A DNA stretch of 64,000 nucleotides from Clostridiales bacterium (GTDB lineage Bacteria > Bacillota > Clostridia > Oscillospirales > Oscillospiraceae): assembly GCA_022786995.1 (NCBI GenBank), contig JALFUW010000071.1:27032-91031 (forward strand). Reading direction: 5' to 3'. Under the pieces are notes generated by a model. That model saw only the letters and a list, made by a program, of their open reading frames with translations, did not search any database and had not been told where the DNA came from. Shown one piece after another: positions 1,321-52,337 of the stretch. The position numbers were made by a program, and so were the translations under genes. Numbering within the stretch: the stretch's first letter is position 1; each line of letters starts with the position of its first letter.

Positions 1321-1400
1321 TCGAGTTGACAGTGAACAGTTGACAGTGGACAGTTAATGATCCATAACTATCAACTGTCAACTATCAACTGTCAACTATC
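1321..1400. repeat. Heptamer-arm inverted repeat, AGTTGAC word family
   Basis: AGTTGAC/AGTGAAC/AGTTGAC/AGTGGAC/AGTTAAT - GATCCAT - AACTATC/AACTGTC/AACTATC/AACTGTC/AACTATC: strict 7-bp phasing, complementary arms. Confidence 0.9.
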
Positions 1401-3262: not shown

Positions 3263-3378
3263 TGATAAATGCAAAATGCAGAATGCAAAATGATGGTATC
3301 CGCTGCGCGGATGATTCTAAATCTTCTCCGAAGGAGAAACCACTATTTTGCATTCTGCATTTATCATTTTGCATTTAG
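3254..3378. repeat. Heptamer-arm inverted repeat, AATGCAA word family, with two-hairpin core
   Basis: AATGATA/AATGCAA/AATGCAG/AATGCAA/AATGATG, core GGTATCCGCTGCGCGGATGATTCTAAATCTTCTCCGAAGGAGAAACCA, right arm CTATTTT/GCATTCT/GCATTTA/TCATTTT/GCATTTA. Confidence 0.92.
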
Positions 3379-4935
3379 GATTGCTTCCGCCGTCATCATA
3401 CCGTCAATGGCGGCGGACATGATGCCCCCGGCGTAGCCCGCGCCCTCGCCGGTGGGGTACAGGCCCCGGATTTTGGACTGGCGGGTTTCATCCCGGAGGA
3501 TGCGGACGGGAGAAGAACTACGGGTTTCGGGGGCCGTCAGCACCGCATCCGGGGCCGCAAAGCCCGAAAGCTTTCTGTCCAGCTTCGGCAGGGCCTGCTC
3601 CATGGCAGCGGTCAGCTTTTCCGGCAGAACATCGTGCAGATCACACCAGGTCACGCCGGGGCGGTAGGTGGGGCTGACGCTCCCCGCGCCCGTGCTTGGC
3701 TGGTGGGCCAGGAAGTCTCCCACCTTCTGCGCCGGGGCGCGGTAGCTGCCGCTGATCTGATAAGCACGCTCCTCAATTTCCCGCTGCCAGCGCATTCCGC
3801 CTAACGTCCCCTCGTAGGGAAAATCGGCGGGGTTCACCGTGACGAGGAGCGCCGCGTTGGCGTTCTCCCCTTCCCGGTCGGCATTGCTCATGCCGTTGGT
3901 GACGATGCGGCCATGTTCACTTGCCGCCGCCACTACATGCCCGCCGGGGCACATGCAGAAGGTGTAAACGGTGGAATCGTCCAAATGCTCTGCCAATTTG
4001 TAGTCCGCCGGGGGCAGGGCCGGATTTTCCCCGCCGTACTGGGCACGGTTGATGACACTCTGCTTCTGCTCAATCCGCGCGCCCATGGCAAAGGGCTTGG
4101 GTTCCATGGGAATTCCCGCCCCTTCCAGCATTTCAAAGGTGTCCCGGGCGCTGTGGCCGATGGCGAGAACCGCCGCGTCACAGGGAATGCTCTCCCCGGA
4201 ATCGGTTTTCAGGCCCGTTAATTGTCCATTTTCGACGCAAAGCCCGGTGACCTGGGTGTTGAAGCGAACCTCACCGCCGAGAGAAATGATCCGTTTGCGC
4301 AGGTTTTGCACCACAGTGAGCAAAACATCCGTGCCCACATGGGGCTTGGCGTCATAGAGGATGTCCTCCCGGGCACCGGCCTTCACAAACTGTTCCAGCA
4401 CCCAGCCGATGCGGGGATTATTCACCCCGGTGTTCAGCTTGCCGTCGGAAAAGGTACCCGCGCCGCCTTCACCGAACTGGACGTTGCTTTTTTCATCCAG
4501 GACCCCGGTCGCAAAGAAGGCTTCCACCTTTTCATGGCGGGTCTGTGCGTCCTCGCCCCGCTCCAAAACCAGCGGTTTCCAGCCCGCCAGGGCCAGAATC
4601 AGGGCGGCGAACATCCCCGCCGGGCCGAAGCCCACCACCACGGGCCGCTTTTCCGGGGCGGGCAGGTTTTTCGGCGCTTGATAGAAGGATGTGGGCGCGA
4701 TGGATGCCTTTTTGCAGCCGCTCATGCGGAGAATTTTCTGTTCGTTTCCCTCCACCGCCACGTCCACGGTGTAGATGATTTTCACATCCGGCTTCTTTCT
4801 CGCATCCACGCTGCGGCGGACGATGGAAAGCGTTCGGATTTTGGAATTGTTCAGCCGGAGAAGCCGCGCCGCCTCAAACTGAAGCTGGTGGGCATTGTGC
4901 TCCGGGGGCAGGCTGATGTCCCGCAGTCTGATCAT
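3364..4935 (-). CDS. FAD-dependent oxidoreductase (NAD(P)/FAD-dependent)
   Basis: VVVGFGPAGMFAALILALAGWKPLVLERG, FGEGGAGTFSDGKLNTG, GLYPTGEGAGYAGGIMSAAIDG. Confidence 0.9.
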   Translation of the reverse strand: MIRLRDISLPPEHNAHQLQFEAARLLRLNNSKIRTLSIVRRSVDARKKPDVKIIYTVDVAVEGNEQKILRMSGCKKASIAPTSFYQAPKNLPAPEKRPVVVGFGPAGMFAALILALAGWKPLVLERGEDAQTRHEKVEAFFATGVLDEKSNVQFGEGGAGTFSDGKLNTGVNNPRIGWVLEQFVKAGAREDILYDAKPHVGTDVLLTVVQNLRKRIISLGGEVRFNTQVTGLCVENGQLTGLKTDSGESIPCDAAVLAIGHSARDTFEMLEGAGIPMEPKPFAMGARIEQKQSVINRAQYGGENPALPPADYKLAEHLDDSTVYTFCMCPGGHVVAAASEHGRIVTNGMSNADREGENANAALLVTVNPADFPYEGTLGGMRWQREIEERAYQISGSYRAPAQKVGDFLAHQPSTGAGSVSPTYRPGVTWCDLHDVLPEKLTAAMEQALPKLDRKLSGFAAPDAVLTAPETRSSSPVRILRDETRQSKIRGLYPTGEGAGYAGGIMSAAIDGMMTAEAILNAK

Positions 4936-16802: not shown

Positions 16803-16805
16803 TTC

Positions 16806-17266
16806 AGAGTGGAGTGTGCAGAGTAGAGAGTGCAGATTTTGGAGAAGAACGTACAGCACGGTATAAGAGTAAACGCTTTGCCATTCGTGTTGTGCACCTG
16901 TATCAGCACCTGTGCAGAGAGAAAAACGAGTACACTTTGTCAAAACAGTTCCTGCGCAGTGGAACCAGTATCGGAGCGAATCTGGCAAAAAGTGAATGCG
17001 CCATGAGCAAGAAGGATTTTCTTGCTAAAGTCTATATAGCATTAAAAGAATGCAACGAAACACTATACTGGCTGGAACTGTTGTATGACACCGACTATCT
17101 TCACCCGGAAGAATACAAATCCATGTACGCAGACTGTAAGGAACTGCAAAAAATGCTCTCAGCCACAACCAGAACGCTGCAAACTCAACTTGTCAGCAAA
17201 AAATAATGGTCAGGAGAAAGAGTGGAGATTGTCTCTCCACTCTTCACTCTTCACTCTCCACACTAA
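16806..17266. repeat. Heptamer-arm inverted-repeat element enclosing the four-helix-bundle gene
   Basis: Left arm AGAGTGG/AGTGTGC/AGAGTAG/AGAGTGC/AGATTTT; right arm TCTCCAC/TCTTCAC/TCTTCAC/TCTCCAC/AC. Confidence 0.75.
16814..17206 (+). CDS. Four helix bundle protein (23S rRNA intervening-sequence/S23 type)
   Basis: KSKRFAIRVVHLYQHLCREKNEYTLSKQFLRSGTSIGANLAKSECAMSKKDFLAKVYIALKECNETLYWLELLYDTDYL; start uncertain (GTG at 16814 within the repeat arm is the best candidate). Confidence 0.85.
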   Translation: MCRVESADFGEERTARYKSKRFAIRVVHLYQHLCREKNEYTLSKQFLRSGTSIGANLAKSECAMSKKDFLAKVYIALKECNETLYWLELLYDTDYLHPEEYKSMYADCKELQKMLSATTRTLQTQLVSKK

Positions 17267-22388: not shown

Positions 22389-23252
22389 TCAGTCTCCCAT
22401 AACCATGGTGCCCGCGCCCTCGTCGGTAAGAAGCTCCATCAGAATGGAGTGGGGCACCCGTCCGTCCATAATTACCACATGCTTCACGCCCTTGCCGATG
22501 GCCTCGATGCAGCAGTCCACCTTGGGAATCATGCCGCCGGAGATCACGCCCTCGTCAAAGAGCTTCTTTGCTTCCTTCACCGTCAGGGCGGGAATCAGGG
22601 TGCCGGGATCATCCTTATCCCGCAGAATCCCGGCAATATCCGTCATCATAATTAAGCGCTCCGCGTTCAGGGCGCCGGCAATGTAGGCGGCGGCGGTGTC
22701 GCCGTTGATGTTGTAGGTATTGCCCTGACGGTCGCTGGCGACGGTGGAAATCACGGGGATGTAGTTCTTTTCCAGCAGGTCGGTAATAGGCTGGGTGCGG
22801 ATGCGGGTGATTTTTCCCACATAGCCCAAAGCTTCGTCCTTCATGGTGGCCTCGATGATGCCGCCGTCGATGCCGGAAAGCCCCACGGCGTGACCGCCCT
22901 TCATTTGCAGCAGGTTTACCAGCGTCTTGTTGACCTTGCCCGCCAGCACCATCTGCACGATGTCCACGGTCTCCTTGTCCGTGACCCGCAGACCGTTCAC
23001 AAACTGGGCCTGCTTGCCAAGGCGCTTCATGGTTTCGCTGATCTCCGGGCCGCCGCCGTGAACCAGCACCACCTTCACGCCAATGAGCCACAGCAGGGCG
23101 ATGTCCTCCATCACCTGCTGCTTAAGCTGCTCGTTGATCATGGCGTTGCCGCCGTACTTGATGACCACGATCTTGCCGCTGTATTTCTTAATGTAGGGCA
23201 GGGCCTGGGTCAGCACCTCGGCCCGTTCCATATTTGTCAGTTCGTTTTCCAT
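22389..23252 (-). CDS. argB: Acetylglutamate kinase
   Basis: VVIKYGGNAM, VLVHGGGPEIS, NINGDTAAAYIAGALNAERLIMMTDIAGIL. Confidence 0.96.
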   Translation of the reverse strand: MENELTNMERAEVLTQALPYIKKYSGKIVVIKYGGNAMINEQLKQQVMEDIALLWLIGVKVVLVHGGGPEISETMKRLGKQAQFVNGLRVTDKETVDIVQMVLAGKVNKTLVNLLQMKGGHAVGLSGIDGGIIEATMKDEALGYVGKITRIRTQPITDLLEKNYIPVISTVASDRQGNTYNINGDTAAAYIAGALNAERLIMMTDIAGILRDKDDPGTLIPALTVKEAKKLFDEGVISGGMIPKVDCCIEAIGKGVKHVVIMDGRVPHSILMELLTDEGAGTMVMGD

Positions 23253-26813: not shown

Positions 26814-26890
26814 AATGCGAAATGCTAAATGCAAGGAAGCGGCTCAGAGGAGCAGCATTTTGCATTCAGCATTCTGCATTTTGCATTTAT
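26814..26890. repeat. Heptamer-arm inverted repeat, AATGCAA word, in argG-argH spacer
   Basis: AATGCGA/AATGCTA/AATGCAA ... GCATTTT/GCATTCA/GCATTCT/GCATTTT/GCATTTA. Confidence 0.9.
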
Positions 26891-28113
26891 TACAGTTTTC
26901 CTTGCTCCCGCAGCGCCTGAACCTTGGTGGGCAGGCCCCACAGATTGATGAAGCCGGCAGCCTGATTCTGGTCGTAGTCGCTCTCGCCGAAGGTCACCAG
27001 ATTCTCGGAGTACAGGGAGTAGGGAGAAGTGGTGCCGGCGGGGATGATGTTGCCCTTGTAGAGCTTCAGCTTCACGGAGCCGGTGACGTACTTGTTGCTC
27101 TCGTTGGCAAAGGCGGTGAGAGCCTCCTGCAGGGGGGAGTACCACTTGCCGTTGTAGATGAGGTCGGCGTAGTCCACAGCTAATCTTTGCTTGACATGGA
27201 GAGTGTCCTTATCCACGGTCAGCATTTCCAGCTGCTCATGGGCAAAGTACAGGATGGTGCCGCCGGGGGTCTCGTACACGCCCCGATCCTTCATGCCAAC
27301 CAGCCGGTTCTCCACGATGTCGATGATGCCGATGCCGTTGGCGCCGCCCAGCTGATTCAGCTTCTCAATGATCTTGGAAGCCTTCATCTTCTCGCCGTCG
27401 ATGGCAACGGGAGCGCCGGCCTCGAAGTCGATGGTCACATAGGTGGGTTCGTCGGGGGCCATCATGGGAGACACGCCCATTTCCAGGAAGCCGGGCTTGT
27501 CATAGTCAGGCTCGTTGGCGGGGTCTTCCAGATCCAGGCCCTCGTGGCTCAGATGCCACAGGTTCTTATCCTTGGAATAGTTGGTCTCCCGGCTGATTTT
27601 CAGGGGCACCTTATGGGCCTCGGCGTAGTCGATCTCCTCGTCCCGGGACTTGATGTCCCACTCCCGCCAGGGAGCGATGATCTTCATGTTGGGAGCGAAC
27701 CGCTTGATGGCCAGCTCGAAGCGCACCTGATCGTTGCCCTTGCCGGTAGCGCCGTGGGCAATGGCGTCCGCACCCTCTGCCAGGGCGATTTCAGCCAGTT
27801 TCTTACCGATGACGGGCCGGGCAAAGGCGGTGCCCAGCAGATAGGTCTCGTACTTGGCATCCATTTTCAGGCTGGGGATGATGACCTCGTCCACCATCTC
27901 GTCCACCAGGTCGGCAACAATCAGCTTGCTTGCGCCGGTGGCGATGGCCTTGGCCTCCAGACCCTCCAGCTCGTCCGCCTGGCCTACATTGCCGGCCACA
28001 GCGATGATCTCGGGGTTATTGTAGTTCTCCTTCAGCCAGGGAATGATGATGGAAGTATCCAAGCCGCCGGAATACGCCAGAACAATTTTCTTAATGGAAT
28101 CCTTGTTATTCAT
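26890..28113 (-). CDS. argG: Argininosuccinate synthase
   Basis: [38 protein letters not shown]. Confidence 0.97.
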
Positions 28114-32126: not shown

Positions 32127-32286
32127 TGGAGTACGGCGAGTGGAGTGTGGAGTGTGAAGTGTGGAGTGTGGAGTGTGGAGTGTGGAGTGATGGTATCGCC
32201 TTCGGCGATGAATAATAAGATTCGAATATCTCCACTCCCAACTCCGCGCTCCCCACTCCTAACTCCTAACTTCTAACTCCCCACTA
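32127..32286. repeat. Heptamer-arm inverted repeat, TGTGGAG word family, with conserved core hairpin
   Basis: TTTGGAG/TACGGCG/AGTGGAG/TGTGGAG/TGTGAAG/TGTGGAG x4, core TGATGGTATCGCCTTCGGCGATGAAT, right arm CTCCACT/CCCAACT/CCGCGCT/CCCCACT/CCTAACT/CCTAACT/TCTAACT/CCCCACT. Confidence 0.94.
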
Positions 32287-33414: not shown

Positions 33415-33549
33415 AAACGTCTGTCATCCTGAGTAAGCTTAGCGAGTCGAAGGATCTTCGCACAAATTGACCACAAACGTGTGGTAACGTGCGCAGATCC
33501 TTCGACTTCGCGGCATGAAATGCCGCTCCGCTCAGGATGACAGACGTTT
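33415..33549. repeat. CCTGAGCGAAG-family palindromic repeat, copy 2
   Basis: AAACGTCTGTCATCCTGAG ... CTCAGGATGACAGACGTTT between convergent mnmA and glpK. Confidence 0.93.
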
Positions 33550-35089: not shown

Positions 35090-35105
35090 CTACGGGAAAT
35101 ACAAG

Positions 35106-35190
35106 TTTGGAGTGTGAAGTGTGGAGTGTGGAATTGTGGTATCGCCTTCGGCGATAGATTAAAACTAACTCCTAACTCCTCACTCCAAAC
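35106..35190. repeat. Heptamer-arm inverted repeat, TGTGGAG word, short copy with conserved core
   Basis: TTTGGAG/TGTGAAG/TGTGGAG/TGTGGAA, core TTGTGGTATCGCCTTCGGCGATAGATTAAAACT, AACTCCT/AACTCCT/CACTCCA. Confidence 0.93.
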
Positions 35191-35191
35191 T

Positions 35192-37163: not shown

Positions 37164-37302
37164 CGTAGGGCGGGGTTATGACCCCGCCGACGCACCGATT
37201 TCATCGCAACGCGCCGTGTTCTTCGGGAACACCCCACATTGCGCTATTTCCAGTCTGGAAGAATATCCCACCGTATCGGCGGGGTCATGACCCCGCCCTA
37301 CG
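37164..37302. repeat. CGTAGGGCGGGGTCATGACCCCGCC palindromic repeat
   Basis: CGTAGGGCGGGGTTATGACCCCGCCG ... CGGCGGGGTCATGACCCCGCCCTACG. Confidence 0.88.
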
Positions 37303-37648: not shown

Positions 37649-37716
37649 GGGTGTAATGACATAGTGGTAACGACACCGAGCCACCCATCCAATGGTGCTG
37701 GTCAATAGACCCGGTT

Positions 37717-37960
37717 CGTAACGCATAGGTTGGAGGCCCTGCCGCCCGCAATTTCAGCGTCAATTATCGCAACACCGCCGTTACCGAGCAGCGCCCAATG
37801 GTGTTTCGACTACCACCCGTGTCCGTAACGCATAGGTTGGCGGCCCTGCCGGCCGCAATTTCAGCGTCAATTATCACAACACCGCCGTTACCGAGCAGCG
37901 CCCAATGGTGTTTCGACTACCACCCGTGTCCGTAACGCATTGGCTGGCGGCCCTGCCGCC
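37717..37960. repeat. 107-bp tandem direct repeat (2 full copies plus partials)
   Basis: CGTAACGCAT at 37717, 37824 and 37931 (spacing 107 and 107); unit near-identical over its length. Confidence 0.92.
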
Positions 37961-42096: not shown

Positions 42097-42363
42097 AATA
42101 GCAGGTTTTATGAAATTCTTCAAGTGGTTTTGTAAAATGTTTACAATTACTTCCCATTTGCATGAGCGGACAGAACCGCGCATATACTACTTTCGAGGTG
42201 ACGCAAGATGAAAGAGGACGAAAAAAAGCCGCTTTCCTGGGAAGCGGCAGACCCCAAGCCCCCGGTGATCCACTCCGGGCGGATGGAGAATCGGACGAGA
42301 AATGAAAAAAGCTGATTGGCTTAACGCGGCAGATAGATATAGGGGAACTTTCCTGCTTTAGCA

Positions 42364-42480
42364 TGTCGTCCTGAGCGAGCGTAAGCGAGTCGAAGGATCT
42401 ACGCACAAACACTTCTGAATCAGGTCAAATCGGCGCCAAGATCCTTCGACTACGCGCTTCGCGCTCCGCTCAGGATGACA
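42364..42480. repeat. CCTGAGCGAAG-family palindromic repeat, copy 3
   Basis: TGTCGTCCTGAGCGAGCGTAAGCGAGTCGAAGGATC ... GATCCTTCGACTACGCGCTTCGCGCTCCGCTCAGGATGACA. Confidence 0.93.
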
Positions 42481-42601
42481 CGGTTTTCTTAATCAGATAA
42501 AACACAATTTACCTAAGCAATACCGGTCGAGGGGCCCAGAGGATATATGATAACCACTCGGGTGCGTAACGCATTGTCAGCGGCGACTCGCCGCAAAAAA
42601 C

Positions 42602-44171: not shown

Positions 44172-44275
44172 CGGCGTAAGATACAAGATACGAGATACAA
44201 GCTACAAGATAGAAAGCACCAATTCAGAACAGCGAGTATTATCTTCTATCTTGTATCTTAATATCTTGTATCTAT
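44172..44275. repeat. Heptamer-arm inverted repeat, AAGATAC word, ruvB-ruvA spacer
   Basis: AAGATAC/AAGATAC/GAGATAC/AAGCTAC/AAGATAG ... TTATC/TTCTATC/TTGTATC/TTAATATC/TTGTATC. Confidence 0.92.
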
Positions 44276-44897: not shown

Positions 44898-45003
44898 TGA
44901 GATACAAGATACAAGATACTAGATACAAGATATGGAGCAAGGGCTCAGATACAATGCAATATCTTGTATCTTCTATCTTGTATCTTGTATCTTACATCTT
45001 GCT
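44898..45003. repeat. Heptamer-arm inverted repeat, AAGATAC word, ruvA-ruvC spacer
   Basis: GAGATAC/AAGATAC/AAGATAC/TAGATAC/AAGATAT ... ATC/TTGTATC/TTCTATC/TTGTATC/TTGTATC/TTACATC/TTGC. Confidence 0.93.
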
Positions 45004-45699: not shown

Positions 45700-45815
45700 A
45701 ACAGTTGACAATTGACAGTTGACAGTTGACAATGAAGGAGTCCCTGTGGGACAATTTGAATCTATCCCGAAGGGATACCAAAAAATGTCAATTTTCAATT
45801 GTCCATTGTCAATTC
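45700..45815. repeat. Heptamer-arm inverted repeat, ACAGTTG word, with conserved two-hairpin core
   Basis: ACAGTTG/ACAATTG/ACAGTTG/ACAGTTG/ACAATGA; core (reverse complement) TTGGTATCCCTTCGGGATAGATTCAAATTGTCCCACAGGGAC. Confidence 0.93.
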
Positions 45816-52275: not shown

Positions 52276-52337
52276 TTTCAATTCGTCCCGAAGGGACACC
52301 GTCATTGTCAACTGTCAACTGTCAATTGTCAACTATC
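52276..52337. repeat. Partial heptamer-arm element (core hairpin plus one arm) at uvrA 3' end
   Basis: CGTCCCGAAGGGACACCGT; CATTGTC/AACTGTC/AACTGTC/AATTGTC/AACTATC. Confidence 0.88.

Follow-up and report, generated by a model that had tools for sequence, protein, structure and literature searches.

In 2008, in Genome Research (18:1484, a study cited in PMC4390886 and PMC3116915), Elhai et al. reportedly described small dispersed repeats (SDR4-6) situated inside tandem heptamers in Nostoc and its relatives. These SDRs are said to be short hairpins with compensatory changes and little sequence in common between families, and to be thought mobile. The elements analysed here resemble the SDRs in that the GGTATC core, too, is a short, dispersed hairpin that shows compensatory changes and often lies among tandem heptamers. 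By description they differ from the SDRs in phylum and in core sequence, and in that the heptamers are the two inverted arms of an element and also carry a PF05635 gene.

Intervening sequences (IVSs) of 23S rRNA with an S23/IVP open reading frame (ORF) are known in Coxiella and Leptospira, and in the Coxiella IVS tandem heptamers precede the ORF (PMC4990558). Heptameric repeats are also found as GGGAATC in Xanthomonas, with 70-75 convergent inverted pairs per genome (PMC4692102), and as TAACTGA in Beggiatoaceae (PMC4679880). The arrays described below share with these, and with the cyanobacterial STRR, a period of 7 and a dispersed, intergenic distribution, but those reports mention neither a flanked gene nor a covarying core; the comparison is by description, save for the cyanobacterial plasmids. 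SDRs in heptamers, REPINs and 23S IVSs are each already known, and the new part is the link between them. A literature search that covered few subscription journals found no paper tying heptameric repeats, SDR-like hairpins and IVP/23S IVSs together.

Inverted heptamer arms in the window

The window, the whole 64,000-nucleotide stretch of DNA that was analysed (contig JALFUW010000071.1 of a Clostridiales bacterium, positions 27,032 to 91,031), contains five GGTATC cores, and all five were found where the original prediction had placed them, at 3291 (element B), 32188 (E), 35135 (F), 45760 (I) and 52280 (J). Most intergenic tandem repeats in the window are period-7 arrays, and each of these except that at 52306-52334 has a nearby partner of near reverse-complement word (Table 1). 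In 400 kb of this genome there are 39 period-7 arrays and 11 inverted pairs within 1.5 kb, with only 0-1 inverted pairs for each of the periods 5, 6, 8, 9, 10 and 11.

The arm words vary within the window (GTGGAGT, TTGACAA, AATGCAA, AAGATAC) and the architecture is constant. Even the arms of one element can differ, as do GTGGAGT on the left and ACTCCTA on the right of element E, and the units within arms vary in a way that resembles slippage products. A single arm-word consensus, fitted to the genus by eye, failed on plasmid loci and was discarded.

Elements A, D, G and H have such arms without a GGTATC core, and in element C (16805-17261) a protein gene lies between them; similar arms also enclose other cores and a PF05635 gene in genomes and phyla in which the GGTATC core either did not turn up or was not sought. 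It is the pair of inverted period-7 arms that stays constant in the family, and the GGTATC core is one cargo among several. The word swappable, as had been proposed, describes the arms aptly, but they are a piece of the element and not of its surroundings.

The five cores very probably represent a family of very small mobile inserts of the form (7-base word)n - cargo - (reverse complement)n. These inserts are lodged mostly between genes. The cargo is either a PF05635 gene or a non-coding core, and the two-hairpin arrangement GGT-hp1-linker-hp2-ACC is one common non-coding core here.

Table 1. Armed elements of the window and their parts, in window coordinates.
Feature	Position	Strand	Basis
Element E left arm, ~7 copies of GTGGAGT	32140..32189	+	TRF period 7, 95% matches
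Element E hairpin 1, GGT-ATCGCC-TTC-GGCGAT	32192..32209	+	Sequence; genus-wide stem covariation
Element E linker, rich in A/T, with hairpin 2 weak or missing	32210..32233	+	Core fold vs shuffles
Element E right arm, ACTCCTA-like heptamers complementary to left arm	32234..32285	+	TRF period 7
Element F left arm (AGTGTGG)	35104..35132	+	TRF period 7
Element F hairpin 1, GGTATCGCCTTCGGCGAT	35138..35155	+	Sequence
Element F right arm (CTAACTC)	35165..35191	+	TRF period 7
Element B left arm (AAATGCA)	3267..3292	+	TRF period 7
Element B two-hairpin core, GGTATCCGCTGCGCGGAT...TTCTCCGAAGGAGAA-ACC	3295..3341	+	
Element B right arm (reverse complement of AATGCAA words)	3345..3382	+	TRF; inverted repeat I2
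Element I left arm (TTGACAA words on minus strand)	45786..45814	-	TRF period 7
Element I two-hairpin core, GGTATCCCTTCGGGAT...GTCCCACAGGGAC-TCC	45737..45779	-	
Element I right arm	45701..45731	-	TRF period 7
Element J left arm (TTGACAG words), without right arm	52306..52334	-	TRF period 7
Element J hairpin 1, GGTGTCCCTTCGGGAC	52285..52300	-	
Element C left heptamer arm, imperfect, GAGTGTG-type	16805..16836	+	TRF period 14
Element C gene of family PF05635 (23S rRNA IVP, four-helix bundle), from domain start to stop codon	16862..17206	+	Pfam E = 3.1e-29
Element C right heptamer arm (CTCTCCA)	17233..17261	+	TRF period 7
Element A inverted TTGACAG/CAACTGT arms, almost no core	1324..1400	.	TRF
Element D inverted AATGC-type arms, core without GGTATC	26814..26888	.	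TRF
Element G at the ruvA/ruvB junction, inverted AAGATAC arms around a core lacking GGTATC	44178..44273	.	TRF
Element H at the ruvC/ruvA junction, inverted AAGATAC arms around a core lacking GGTATC	44900..45001	.	TRF

Structure and covariation of the hairpin core

Within the window the pairs of stem 1 change jointly, as predicted (ATCGC/GCGAT, ATCCC/GGGAT, ATCCGC/GCGGAT and GTCCC/GGGAC), and the compensatory change extends across the genus. A search of 61 genomes from the window's genus used the pattern GGTATCNNCTTCGNNGAT, in which two of the stem pairs are free to vary. Among the 150 matches listed, both free pairs are Watson-Crick in 140, where about 6% would be expected, with G-U pairs in 2 and broken pairs in 8; the Watson-Crick matches span 8 pair combinations, and we therefore conclude that stem 1 covaries. 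The reversed control pattern gave 0 matches in the same 61 genomes. Copy number of the core ranges from 0 to 28 per genome in this set, and 100 armed hairpins from the genus carry 27 left-arm consensus words, so that the cores recur with many arm words and not with one.

The full core has the layout GGT-hairpin1-AT linker-hairpin2-ACC. The second hairpin, which the original prediction made part of the shared core, is a proper one in elements B and I, is weak or absent in E and F, and is absent in J, where the next hairpin looks like a terminator. Genus-wide the second hairpin is real. From the 100 armed hairpins it was possible to parse 76 cores that are no longer than 130 nt and have a located right arm, with hairpin 2 counted by structure and a few long symmetrical cores read from both ends; hairpin 2 followed directly by NCC (ACC, TCC or GCC) is present in 45 of the 76, and in 1.3% of shuffled cores. 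Among the genus cores there are 17 sequence types of stem 1 and 16 of stem 2. First hairpins have a TTC loop in 91/100 cases and second hairpins a GAA loop in 32/45, and the two hairpins thus look like inverted copies.

The two-hairpin cores give better folds than their shuffles, also when folded as DNA. The core of element E alone does not fold clearly better than its shuffles; element E entire folds at -76.6 kcal/mol (z = -9.75). A comparison with Rfam 15 gave no match at gathering score in the window, and only sub-threshold matches in nine loci. Outside the genus the core is rare, yet present with arms. Since the core is kept by compensatory change and is common to many arm words, its fold matters. 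The proposal that the core is the recognised unit holds in so far as the core is structured, changes in a compensatory manner and occurs with many words, but the core alone is not the constant part of the family.

The core, with its two inverted hairpins (45/76 cores) and conserved tips, is REPIN-like (PMC3116915), and like REPINs the elements are small, intergenic and probably non-autonomous mobile units. On this basis the GGTATC hairpins could be REPs that a Y1 (HUH) tyrosine transposase mobilises in inverted pairs via single-stranded DNA, the heptamers being incidental, and RAYT-like Y1 genes are indeed present in 33 of the 61 genus genomes, many of which have cores. The Y1 genes examined, however, are mostly flanked by GTAG-tagged REPs and not by GGTATC hairpins, no Y1 match was found in the core-rich genomes G002 and G032, and the arms around PF05635 genes and other cores are left unexplained. 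The elements differ from REPINs in their heptamer arms and in having neither a RAYT link nor a GTAG tag. We consider a REPIN/RAYT origin unlikely, and RAYT/Y1 was rejected as the mobiliser because the Y1 flanks mostly carry GTAG REPs and G002 and G032 are without a Y1 match.

PF05635 genes between heptamer arms

All three PF05635 genes of this genome (G000) are armed, with three different words, and sit between protein genes and not in the 23S rRNA gene. The three words recur in other elements of the same genome; they are common in the genus, and so this recurrence was not counted as evidence. Solved relatives of the IVP protein are 2rld and 2gsc.

A set of 61 PF05635 loci was drawn from the genus and phylum. 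Strict period-7 arrays are present on both sides in 34/61, whereas each of the other periods from 4 to 12 gave at most one locus with arrays on both sides. A locus's own arms are complementary in 39/61 cases, versus 3.1% of mismatched pairs, and moving the test positions by 700-1000 bp left a period-7 signal in 0, 0, 0 and 1 of about 55 loci. The arms lie close to the gene, at a median distance of 12 nt from the start codon and 5 nt from the stop codon. Cross-phylum data come from plasmids (PLSDB) and add Spirochaetota, Bacteroidota, Cyanobacteriota and Chloroflexota to Clostridia; in all 14 fetched plasmid loci period 7 was the best on at least one side, and in 13 on both sides, with further words.

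In a tree of 72 IVP proteins from genus, phylum and plasmids, 58 of the genes are armed by a combined rule, and the armed ones occur in both deep subfamilies. The other 14 have no recognised arms (two of these have period 11), and one supported genus clade is armless; its members are perhaps settled or acting in trans. This clade (SGTSIGANIREA.YAH) is found at L047, L053, L057-L060, L224, L225, L233, L245 and L257. At L075 and L077 the complementary arrays flanking the IVP gene have period 11 (ACGATAGTTAA), not 7.

As in the 23S IVSs, the PF05635 ORF is enclosed by terminal inverted repeats (element C and the 58/72 armed loci) and would lie in the loop of a long terminal stem, and three armed loci (L071, L076, L085) carry the 23S rRNA marker and lie within that gene. 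Unlike the 23S IVSs, most loci here are between protein genes and not in rRNA, and the elements have non-coding hairpin cargo and many arm words. At one locus (L052) the stretch from the IVP stop codon to the right arm holds hairpin 2 and ACC from the core, which means that an IVP gene can occur together with part of the core in a single element; this is the only IVP element that carries part of the core.

Several plasmid IVP elements (L187, L192, L195-L199) are located between genes of defence operons, namely hsdS/hsdR, cas1/cas2, DUF1156/HEPN and DISARM drmD/methylase.

Presence and absence at orthologous sites

Orthologous sites were compared in relatives whose flanks show 74-94% identity. 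At site H, G030 and G052 have no insert, and G011 has an element with AATTAGG arms. At site E there is again no insert in G030, and there is one in G009, with a repeat number different from that in G000. The armed element of site F is absent in both G030 and G009, site I is altered in the same two genomes, and at site D a diverged armed insert is found at the same place in G009. Site G, the ruvA/ruvB junction, contains different-word elements in G038 and G011. Sites that are empty or filled by other-word elements, between flanks of this identity, indicate that the inserts are mobile; because the flanks are only 74-94% identical, loss is indistinguishable from gain. A further insert of about 670 bp, at the ruvC/ruvA junction of site H in G038 (L165, contig C20), ends in AAAGTTG-type heptamers.

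In Nostoc plasmids a CAATTCG-word IVP element replaces about 315 nt of a cytosine methyltransferase gene (L191, L204, L205), and the gene is intact, without the element, in three other plasmids (L201-L203). At the left breakpoint the intact gene reads CAATTCG, and at the right one there is no match; this 7-nt match between arm and target is a single case and may be due to chance. A MITE of a DDE transposon would have a target-site duplication and fixed terminal inverted repeats. No target duplication was seen at site H or at the Nostoc site, both with divergent flanks, and the arms vary in word.

The variable repeat number at site E (G000 versus G009) and the slippage-like variation of arm units would be expected if the arrays were ordinary simple repeats, formed by slippage around pre-existing hairpins or genes and paired in inverted orientation by gene conversion, with no mobile element involved. 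Slippage, however, does not predict period 7 only, with dozens of words in five phyla, nor does such an origin predict complementary partner arms, whole inserts that are present or absent, or the tie to one gene family, and we regard it as highly improbable. It is also very unlikely that the inserts are terminators, attenuators or RNA-stability stems kept for the benefit of the host. Their strong RNA folds and their location in intergenic regions and operon junctions would suit such a function, but neither position nor word is conserved among close relatives, some elements occupy junctions like ruvC/ruvA/ruvB, where termination would hurt, and core copy number runs from 0 to 28 within one genus.

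The IVP is described as having the same fold as Avd, the accessory protein of DGRs. This likeness would fit a retroelement in which a resident reverse transcriptase copies the folded RNA, the IVP acts like Avd and telomerase-like slippage writes the heptamers, and primed copying would be in line with the 7-nt match of arm word to target that was seen at a single junction. Against this, no RVT_1 match was found in G000, G009, G038 or G056 (85-90% complete), each of which has several cores. A resident reverse transcriptase is on these grounds not supported as a requirement, and a retroelement of this kind is quite unlikely.

A model for the armed inserts

The explanation that we favour on balance, with moderate confidence in it as a whole, combines a family of armed inserts with arm pairing, passenger cores and IVP-aided copying. 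The arms would pair into a long stem in a putative transcript, by analogy with the 23S intervening sequences, which are cut by RNase III; if so, this pairing would allow an insert in an operon junction to be tolerated. The hairpin cores may be non-autonomous REPIN- or MITE-like passengers. The IVP, a small bundle resembling nucleic-acid-binding proteins, could help to copy the stems to new sites via an RNA or single-strand route, and slippage or template switching would keep the heptamers uniform.

That the IVP drives the movement of the inserts is a tentative proposal that could well prove wrong. It is put forward as the helper since it is the only protein tied to the arms. In two core-rich genomes, G002 (98% complete) and G009, all IVPs found belong to the armless clade, which is the main weakness of the IVP-driven model, and the role of mobiliser is for this reason inferred and not a result. 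No full IVP was found in G005 and G032 (genomes 78-81% complete). Speculative, and likewise doubtful, is the idea that PF05635 with two heptamer arms forms a complete selfish element of about 400 bp, whose own mechanism lays 7-nt repeats of almost any word; such an element would be the source of the cyanobacterial, Xanthomonas and other heptamers, which have been known for decades, with GGTATC-type cores as its non-autonomous parasites. If true, few autonomous mobile elements would be smaller.

Neither the heptameric intergenic repeats nor the small PF05635 protein has had a settled explanation, and the finding that the same kind of ends flank the 23S rRNA IVP gene in five phyla joins two puzzles that are usually treated apart. 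That the gene occurs within heptamers in five phyla, whether inside rRNA or elsewhere, suggests a shared cause and singles out a protein for testing. As a compact, covarying passenger, the GGTATC core can be used for tracking movement, and specialists can now address directly the question of why, for any word, the unit has seven bases.

Other repeats

GTAG-tagged REPs, which flank the RAYT-like Y1 transposase genes in this genus, form a separate system (CGTAGGGCGGGGTTATGACCCCGCC) that is present at 37164-37302 of the window and also at L169 (G000:C103, about 22545-23027). One 93-kb contig of the same assembly (G000:C34, L009-L013) is without any period-7 array, reflecting either an uneven distribution or a contig of another origin. 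At 37709-37960 of the window lies a tandem repeat of 107 bp, with (G/T)TCGTAACGCATTGG in its unit; sequence related to it occurs at 42534-42576 and also adjoins armed elements in L016 and L028. A dispersed repeat family, AGATCCTTCGACTCGCTTTGCTCGCTCAGGATGACA, is found at 2443-2478, 33422-33457 and 42349-42380 of the window, and also inside site F of G009.
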